DNA of 36,531 bases from Bryobacterales bacterium (GTDB taxonomy: Bacteria > Acidobacteriota > Terriglobia > Bryobacterales > Bryobacteraceae). The stretch lies in NCBI GenBank assembly GCA_003169195.1, contig PMQB01000589.1, positions 1 through 36,531 of the forward strand. The letters are read 5' to 3'. Shown here one piece after another: positions 11,464-33,973 of this stretch. Numbering within the stretch: position 1 is the first letter of the stretch; every line of letters begins with the position of its first letter. A model generated the notes under the pieces. That model did no database searches. It saw only the letters and a list, made by a program, of their open reading frames with translations, and was not told the origin of the DNA. A program made the translations under genes and the position numbers.

Positions 11464-11499
11464 GATGATCGGAGGGCCGATCACTTTATTTGACCATAC
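11464..11499. repeat. 36-bp exact repeat, copy 1, upstream of carB; contains hairpin TGATCGG-AGGG-CCGATCA
   Basis: gatgatcggagggccgatcactttatttgaccatac, identical to 33938-33973. Confidence 0.97.
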
Positions 11500-11636
11500 G
11501 GGAGCAGCAGAACCGAAGGTGAAGAATTTCAGTAGAAAGCGGTACGAGTCGAAAGCAGAAGGATTTAAACGGTGGATCGGCGTTTAAGTCAATTGGGAAA
11601 TAAAACAAGGAGTAGTTTGTAGTACTAAATCAAGCC

Positions 11637-11663
11637 TGGGACGACAACGTGGGTGTCGTCCCA
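11637..11663 (-). terminator. Perfect 10-bp hairpin downstream of bcsC, putative terminator
   Basis: TGGGACGACA-ACGTGGG-TGTCGTCCCA immediately after the bcsC stop (11681, minus strand); weak U tract, so terminator function is uncertain. Confidence 0.5.
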
Positions 11664-11680
11664 AGACAAAATTCGGACCC

Positions 11681-30634: not shown

Positions 30635-32779
30635 GTGAGTATCTTCAGCGGAATCGTATTGTGCGATGAGTTAGAACAGCACGTGCCCGTCGAGGCTCCT
30701 TTACGTTACGCGTTGCCTGATGCCCGTACGCGGTTACTCGAACTGGTGACCTCGGACTTCGAATTTGTGCGGGGATCACCTATCCCACTTGGGGCTACGG
30801 TGGTGCGCGGTGGCGTCAACTTCGCTCTTTTTGCGAAAACAGCTAAAACGGTCACCTTAGTCATCTTTCTGCCGAATGATCCGCTGCCGCTCTTGGAATT
30901 TCCCTTAGATGCGCGCTTTCACAAAACCGGCGACGTCTGGCATTGTCTGTTGAACGGTTTGGATCCGGGCATTCATTATGGATATCGTGTCAACGATGGC
31001 GCCGTTCTGGTTGACCCATATGGCAAGGCCGTTTGGGGACGTCCGCATTGGGGCCAGATTGCTACCGACGGGCTTCGCTCCGTTGTCGTAGAGGACCGCT
31101 TCGCTTGGGAATATGACCAGCCACTGGGAACGCCTATGGCGGATTCGGTCATTTACGAACTGCACGTTCGCGGATTTACCAACCACCCTTCGTCTGGCGT
31201 TAGCGCGCCCGGAACATATTTAGGCCTGACGGAGAAGATTCCCTATCTGAAAGAACTGGGCGTGACGGCGGTGGAATTGCTGCCGATTACCGAGTTCGAT
31301 GAAACCGCTAATGAGCGGCATGACCCAATTACTAGCGAAGCGCTGCTGGACTACTGGGGCTACAATCCGCTTTCCTTCTTTGCAACGAAACCGGCCTATT
31401 CTGCAGCAACAGATCCGTTAACGTCCGTCACGGAATTCAAACAGATGGTGAAGGAGTTTCACGCGGCCGGGATTGAAGTCATCTTGGACGTGGTCTTCAA
31501 CCATACCGGCGAAGCTGGCGCAGACGGCCCGTTAGTTTCCTGGCGCGGCATTGATGATGATACCTACTATTTGAAACAGCCGTCCTCTGGTCGTTACCTG
31601 GATTACTCCGGCTGCGGCAACACGGTGAATTGCAATCACCCGGTGGTGCGCAACCAGATTGTGGATTGCCTCCACTACTGGGTAACGCAGATGCATGTGG
31701 ATGGATTCCGCTTCGATCTGGCATCCATTCTAGGTCGTGGGCGCGATGGAGGGGTCTTAGCAAATCCTCCGCTGCTGGAGCAAATTGCCGCCGATCCCAT
31801 CTTGGCGAACACCAAACTGATTGCTGAAGCTTGGGATGCAGCGGGTCTATATCAGGTTGGATCTTTCCCAGCCTGGGGACGCTGGGCTGAATGGAACGGA
31901 CGTTTCCGCGACGACATTCGCAAGTTTGTCAAAGGCGAACCGGGCATGGTGCCGGCGTTGGCCACCCGTTTGGCGGGAAGCTCCGATCTCTATCAAGGCA
32001 GCGGGCGAAATCCGGGCCACAGTATCAACTTCGTGACCTGCCACGATGGCTTCTCGATGGCGGACTTGGTTGCCTACAACGCTAAACACAACGAGCGCAA
32101 CGGCGAAGACAACCGCGATGGCGGCAACGACAACATGAGTTGGAACTGCGGCGTGGAAGGAACTACTGATGATGCGCAGATTGAGCAGTTACGTGCGCGC
32201 CAGATTCGCAACCTAGCGGCGCTGCTCTTGTTGTCTCACGGCACCCCCATGCTGCTGGCCGGCGATGAGATTGGACATTCGCAAAACGGCAACAACAACG
32301 CGTATTGCCAGGACAACGAACTGTCTTGGATCGATTGGAGCCGCCGCGAGTCAAACGCCTCCCTCTTCCGCTTCATTCGCGGCCTGATTCAATTCCGCAA
32401 AGACCATTCCGTTTTGCGTAAGAGCAGTTTCGGTCCCGATCAAGAAGGTCGCGGCATCGTCATGCATTGGGGCGGTCGAATGCCGGGCGCTGCCGATTGG
32501 AGCGACGAATCAAGACTTCTGTCTTTGTATCTGTGTGAGCATCCGGTATTTGAACCGGGTGAACAGATCTACCTCATCGCCAATTCCCATTGGGAAGCAG
32601 CTGATTGCGAGTTGCCTAACATTGCTTGGGGGCGCTGGCATCGTTTCGTAGATACGTCGTTAGCGGCGCCGTTTGACATGGCCGGACGAGGCGAGGAAGT
32701 AGAGATCTCCCAGAATCGTTATTTCGTCAATGCGCGTTCGGTGGTGATTTTGGTGGCGAAGAACAGAAGCTCTCTATAG
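30635..32779 (+). CDS. glgX: Glycogen debranching enzyme GlgX (GH13)
   Basis: [86 protein letters not shown]. Confidence 0.96.
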
Positions 32780-33919
32780 CTTCATGGCTTCGGCGAAATC
32801 GTTGAACAGATAGTGCGAATCATGTGGGCCGGGCGCTGCCTCGGGGTGATACTGCACGCAGAACACCGGATAATTTCGGTGCCGCATGCCCTCCACCGTG
32901 TTGTCGTTCAGATTGAGGTGAGTCACCTCCACCTCCGAATCCGGTAAAGAATGCGGATCCACGCAAAAGCCATGATTCTGCGAAGTAATCTCCACCTTGT
33001 TGGTACGGTAATTAATCACCGGATGATTTGCACCATGGTGGCCGAATTTCAGTTTGTACGTTTTGCCGCCGAAAGCGAGACCCAAGATTTGATGCCCGAG
33101 GCAGATGCCGAAGATAGGCACCTTGCCAATAAGTTGGCGCACTTGGGCGGCCTGATGCTCCAGTGGTTCTGGGTCGCCCGGGCCATTTGACAAAAACACC
33201 CCAGTCGGCTTTAGCGCCAGCACGTCTTCGGCCGCAGTATCCGCCGGCACCACCGTCACTTGGGAACCAATGTCAACCAGATGGCGCAAGATATTGCGCT
33301 TGATGCCATAGTCGTAGGCCACCACATGAAAGCGCTGTTCCGGCGCAGCGGCTCGCTTGTCGGAAACACAGACCGCGTCAATCCCTTCGGTCCAGTTATA
33401 ACTGTGGGTGGCCGTTACGCGCGCTACTAAATTTTGTCCAGCCATGGACGGCGATGCTTTTGCCGCTGCAATCAGAGCCGCGGTTTCATGCACGCCAACC
33501 GCAATAATGCCGCGCTTCGCCCCGTGATCTCGCAAATGTCGCACCAAGCGCCGCGTATCTACTTCGGCAATTACCGGTATTCCACTCTTTGACAGAAAGT
33601 GTTCGGCCTTGTCATCGGCGCGCCAATTGCTGACCACGGGCGACATTTCGCGCACTACCAGACCTTCTATATAAGGACCGCCCGATTCACTGTCGGCGTG
33701 ATTGGCGCCATAGTTCCCAATCTGGGGATTCGTGAGAACCACAATTTGCCCGGTATAGGACGGGTCAGTAAAGATTTCCTGGTAGCCAGTAATGGCGGTA
33801 TTGAAAACCACTTCGCCTGTGCGCTGGGTAGCCGCACCAAAACTGACTCCTTCAAAAATGCTGCCGTCTTCCAGTGCGAGAACTGCTTGCTCCAACCGAT
33901 AGGCTCCTAAATTAAACAT
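32774..33919 (-). CDS. carA: Carbamoyl-phosphate synthase small subunit
   Basis: [46 protein letters not shown]; glutaminase [31 protein letters not shown]. Confidence 0.98.
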
Positions 33920-33937
33920 TTAGCCGCAAGGGTTGCG

Positions 33938-33973
33938 GATGATCGGAGGGCCGATCACTTTATTTGACCATAC
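33938..33973. repeat. 36-bp exact repeat, copy 2, upstream of carA, overlapping the stop codon of the DUF4038-like gene
   Basis: gatgatcggagggccgatcactttatttgaccatac, identical to 11464-11499. Confidence 0.97.

Follow-up and report, generated by a model that had tools for sequence, protein, structure and literature searches.

The carAB operon of E. coli has tandem promoters. These are also mentioned in the description of the carA motif (SRC-12-1), a candidate riboswitch of Polynucleobacter that forms an extended imperfect hairpin next to the ribosome-binding site (PMC8632094). Stabilising stem-loops at the very 5' terminus of a transcript are known from the ompA and papA mRNAs of E. coli and the aprE mRNA of B. 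subtilis (works cited in PMC3997798).

We analysed a stretch of 36,531 nt (the window) from an Acidobacteriota genome, in which an exact 36-bp repeat precedes both carA and carB. Like the ompA, papA and aprE stem-loops, the element contains a short and stable hairpin that lies upstream of the ribosome-binding site, with a predicted beginning no more than about 2 nt from the 5' end. It differs from them in a stem and loop that are near-invariant and tied to one operon and one lineage. The functionally closest known kind would be the mRNA-protecting 5'-terminal stem-loop as in ompA, of which the car hairpin is a candidate member. The likeness to SRC-12-1 lies in a structured leader that is positioned directly upstream of carA and proposed to be regulatory; the two are set apart by their description, as SRC-12-1 is an extended imperfect structure in beta-proteobacteria and the hairpin studied here is short, perfect, placed at a predicted 5' end and found in Acidobacteriota (PMC8632094). 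As in E. coli carAB, control would be exerted at the promoter region, but with a single predicted promoter. A literature search returned no published carA leader element in Acidobacteriota, and nothing relevant on operon splitting with promoter duplication.

We put at roughly 0.7 the probability that the 36-mer is the beginning of a lineage-specific car promoter together with a 5'-terminal leader hairpin, which was doubled when the operon was split. The parts of the two leaders are as follows, in positions of the window.

33962..33970, minus strand: extended -10 promoter (TGG-TCAAAT) of carA; TGnTnnAAT is kept here in the genus and family
33941..33956, minus strand: hairpin P1 (GATCGG-CCCT-CCGATC), predicted 5' end of the carA mRNA, at a fixed 5-nt distance to the -10
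33924..33938, minus strand: hairpin P2 (CCGCAA-CCC-TTGCGG), covarying in relatives
33904..33909, minus strand: Shine-Dalgarno sequence TAGGAG of carA, conserved in the genus
32774..33895, minus strand: carA, carbamoyl-phosphate synthase small chain, TTG start at 33895
11488..11496, minus strand: extended -10 promoter (TGG-TCAAAT) of the carB unit
11467..11482, minus strand: hairpin P1 of the carB leader, with the same sequence as at carA
11451..11456, minus strand: Shine-Dalgarno sequence TAGGAG retained from the carA leader
11338..11442, minus strand: mini-ORF of 34 codons with the duplicated carA TTG start, its TAA overlapping the carB ATG (TAATG)
8117..11338, minus strand: carB, carbamoyl-phosphate synthase large chain

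The repeat GATGATCGGAGGGCCGATCACTTTATTTGACCATAC was found at 11464-11499 and 33938-33973 without mismatches (shuffled expectation 0.00 in the window search), in the same orientation relative to the minus-strand genes carB and carA, and with no third copy within 3 mismatches in the window, which bears out what an earlier, sequence-only reading of this DNA had described. That reading also held that the similarity ends abruptly on both sides. This is correct upstream, where it breaks off at once, but not downstream, where after a divergent gap of about 10-30 nt the copies match again over the Shine-Dalgarno sequence and TTG start (TAGGAG-n-CTATCGGTTG) and the next five carA codons (26 of 32 positions identical; local score 34 versus a maximum of 27 in 2000 shuffles). 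The ATG at 33919, previously taken as the start of carA, is peculiar to the source genome and probably wrong, the start conserved in the genus being the TTG at 33895 behind TAGGAG.

On the minus strand the element reads TATGG-TCAAAT-AAAGT-GATCGG-CCCT-CCGATC. Roughly half of the repeat is promoter (-10), and the leader hairpin comes next; the earlier proposal of a cis-regulatory site is to be corrected in that the element would not be a free-standing operator. The TG-n-T..AAT of an extended -10 promoter is present in every aligned copy except that of G002, with a weak -10 hexamer whose second base is often C and not A. A TTGA -35 at 16-19 bp spacing was found in 7 of 12 relatives, versus 0.12 expected by shuffling, and the -35 matches are poor in the copies of the source genome (G000) and of G012. 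The distance from the -10 to P1 is invariably 5 nt. Such an anatomy points to a promoter of the extended -10 type, from which transcription would begin on the first stem base or its neighbour, the predicted start of both genes being the G/A of GTGATCGG. Other genera of the family have a similar TGnTnnAAT promoter before carA, with no comparable hairpin there, which indicates that P1 appears to be a later gain than the promoter.

Two further observations were made at the -10 region. In most genus members it reads as RTG, two codons and a stop codon (TAA, TGA or TAG; 33960-33971 and the equivalent in relatives). A mini-ORF over the -10 was set aside, as the extended -10 accounts for the pattern, which probably arises simply because purines come after TGnT..AAT. 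Additionally, the carA -10 region (33960-33970) contains the stop codon (TAA at 33962-33960) of the apiosidase-like gene that lies upstream (PF13204, DUF5060), suggesting that a rearrangement brought this gene and the promoter together at a junction falling almost exactly on the extended -10.

An exact repeat with a palindrome may also be a dispersed REP-like repeat with two chance landings, the alternative offered by the sequence-only reading, which took dozens of genome copies as the sign of such a repeat. The whole assembly of the source genome (7.8 Mb in 704 contigs, 90% complete, estimated 6% contamination) holds no copies within 3 mismatches beyond the two, and a covariance-model search of this genome returned the same two copies and otherwise only weak, unconvincing matches. 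Moreover, the element occupies the orthologous place in other genomes, and the context-matched copies all lie at carA or carB. The REP-like repeat is refuted by this copy number and position, and we consider its chance of being correct practically nil.

Thirteen genomes of the genus have carA and carB side by side, with a gap of about 17 nt (93 nt in G002); these include G005 and G014, in which the pair is cut by contig ends and the carA end precedes carB. Genomes with an adjacent pair normally have one element, before carA. The genes are apart only in G000 and G012, and only these two genomes hold two copies. P1 is intact in 12 of the 15 genus genomes in which carA was found, broken in G011 and absent in G006 and G008, and is thus dispensable in some lineages. 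The data support a shared cis-regulatory element, since in the source genome its sites are confined to carA and carB and it stands intact before carA in those 12 genus genomes. The notion that the element landed twice has to be corrected: it would be the original carAB leader, doubled at the operon split.

Outside the genus, the element was found before carA in one genome of another genus (G123), and the weak model matches in other genera of the family included none at carA except this one. A match in G254 was discarded, as its similarity is mostly that of a promoter and no carA is present there. The public records that contain the element are Acidobacteriota MAGs, of which one has Bryobacterales in its title and the others Acidobacteriaceae. 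In 84,980 genomes the exact core AAGTGATCGGCC-N1-3-CCGATC gave 107 matches. Nine of them carry the promoter context, at carA in eight cases and at carB in one; the others had no promoter context and, as judged by eye, most resemble coding sequence.

PyrR-dependent pyr attenuators are also leaders of pyrimidine genes, and PyrR is encoded in most genomes of the genus. The car element differs from them, however, in the absence of an Rfam match, of a terminator and of any counterpart in the pyrR leaders of the genus. No Rfam family matched the window or the carA leader at the gathering or a relaxed threshold, and the family for the PyrR binding site had no match in either at the relaxed threshold. 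In the genus leaders P1 is followed by AUCCGC, AUCACA or GCUGC and by no run of U, and an intrinsic terminator or attenuator was therefore rejected. A pyrimidine regulon was rejected as well, because a model search of the source genome turned up no convincing site apart from the two copies and the pyrR leaders do not have the element. On the same two grounds, the pyrimidine or arginine control suggested earlier found no support. As a separate observation, six pyrR leaders (L223, L224, L225, L227, L229 and L234) contain, within about 60 nt before the start of the pyrR match, a -10-like TnnTAAyCT and immediately after it a small dyad CTGACGTG(A/T)CAG, in place of which L230 has CTGCCTCTGAGCAG; this is another dyad at the likely transcript start of a pyrimidine gene.

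All four leader copies of G000 and G012 are identical over 31 nt, TGGTCAAATAAAGTGATCGGCCCTCCGATCA, spanning the extended -10 through P1, whereas fourfold sites between the two genomes differ by 63% in carA and by 49% in carB. This contrast suggests a strong function in a control element, and the identity is best read as strong purifying selection, or conversion between copies, acting on a non-coding stretch.

The function may in principle be exerted in DNA, with the dyad TGATCGG-N4-CCGATCA serving as an operator at which a repressor sits on the transcription start and silences carA and carB together. Such an operator would account for a dyad that is perfect in most copies, has its fixed place directly behind the -10 and keeps a near-invariant stem sequence. 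It fits less well with the spacing of the half-sites, which is 3, 4 or 5 nt across species (most species have a P1 loop of 4 nt, three have one of 3 nt and a single species one of 5 nt), and with the deviations in intact stems, which are wobble pairs; besides one G-C to A-U double change (GATCAG/CTGATC in G002), the only changes in the P1 stem are two U.G wobbles. The source genome, moreover, has no other good-scoring site, and a second hairpin, covarying, follows downstream. In this hairpin, P2, with stems assigned by hand, pair 2 is C-G or U-A and pair 5 is A-U, G-C or C-G. The covariation of P1 itself is weak, as 51 of 500 shuffles equal it. A variable loop, which an operator bound by a dimer would tolerate poorly, together with the covarying P2, favours an element that acts in RNA, and we consider the DNA operator rather unlikely.

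P2 is present in most copies, downstream of P1, but the carB leader of G000 and the carA leader of G012 lack it, leaving P1 as the constant part. The folding energies of whole leaders are modestly better than those of shuffles (z of about -0.5 to -2.0), with a z of +0.3 for the carA leader of G012. A pairing of the loop with the Shine-Dalgarno sequence (CCUCC with GGAGG), conceived from G000, was dropped, the loops elsewhere being CCCA, CCCG, CCA or CCTCA.

A more specific form of our preferred reading is that the leader is riboswitch-like or a protein-bound RNA that controls the translation of carA and carB in response to, for example, UMP/UTP, arginine or carbamoyl phosphate. The conserved CC(C) loop, the presence of two hairpins upstream of the Shine-Dalgarno sequence, a third hairpin covering part of the latter in some species and the strict link to carA and carB are all in line with this. 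However, a 6-bp hairpin with a loop of 3-5 nt is small for an aptamer, two of the four G000 and G012 copies do without P2, and a matching Rfam family is lacking, so that we regard such a leader as quite unlikely. That the element belongs to an undescribed, lineage-specific kind of pyrimidine or arginine RNA element, in which a minimal 5'-terminal hairpin with a CC(C) loop binds a metabolite or protein, seems unlikely to us too.

The leader copy at carB runs into an open frame with the old carA TTG start and a stop codon overlapping the carB start. This mini-ORF has 34 codons and ends in TAATG in G000, and has 24 codons and ends in TAGTG in G012, the frame being maintained despite a length difference of 30 nt. 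Its first codons resemble those of carA (LLPAV and LQPAV versus LEQAV), and its end in G012, LESSR-stop, is suggestively like the carA end of relatives, KENKR-stop. The mini-ORF is apparently a carA stub and likely a re-initiation leader for carB. Within it, at 11379-11397, lies ATCTGCGTTAATCTGCCGC, which occurs at four places of the assembly within 3 mismatches versus one for the control, and which we take to resemble a sequence dispersed in many bacterial genomes.

The simplest reading of the split would be a doubling of the operon, after which carB disappeared from one copy and most of carA from the other, an order of events that we infer from the sequences. Between the two genes in G000 lies a 21-kb block (11681-32779) with BcsQ, BcsC-like and GH8 genes of cellulose synthesis, and with glycogen phosphorylase, isoamylase-like and NTP-transferase genes. 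The stretches retrieved from either car locus of G012 contain none of these genes, although they have in common with G000 those on the far side of carB and the apiosidase-like gene that precedes carA. It is therefore likely that the block came in by a later insertion or rearrangement.

Put together, the preferred reading of a promoter and 5'-terminal hairpin doubled by the split would run as follows. In the ancestral state one leader, with the extended -10, start, P1, mostly P2, TAGGAG and TTG, would have preceded adjacent carA and carB. In the lineage of G000 and G012 the operon would have been doubled and then split, one unit retaining carA while in the other carA shrank to a stub of 24-34 codons. 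This stub may have been retained as it delivers ribosomes to carB. Given that the stub stop overlaps the carB start, translation of carB probably comes about by re-initiation downstream of the former carA start. P1 would act in the RNA as a 5'-terminal stem-loop that determines how stable the car transcripts are or how they are translated, and with P1 retained at both genes their outputs would stay matched.

This locus amounts to a natural experiment, in which the subunits of an enzyme have been separated and both have the same unchanged 31-nt core of promoter and hairpin. It also offers a clear example of a gene that apparently shrank to a leader mini-ORF and may now drive re-initiation at the next gene. 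If the element is indeed an RNA control element, the split carAB that retains both copies would be evidence that the matching of subunit output depends on it.
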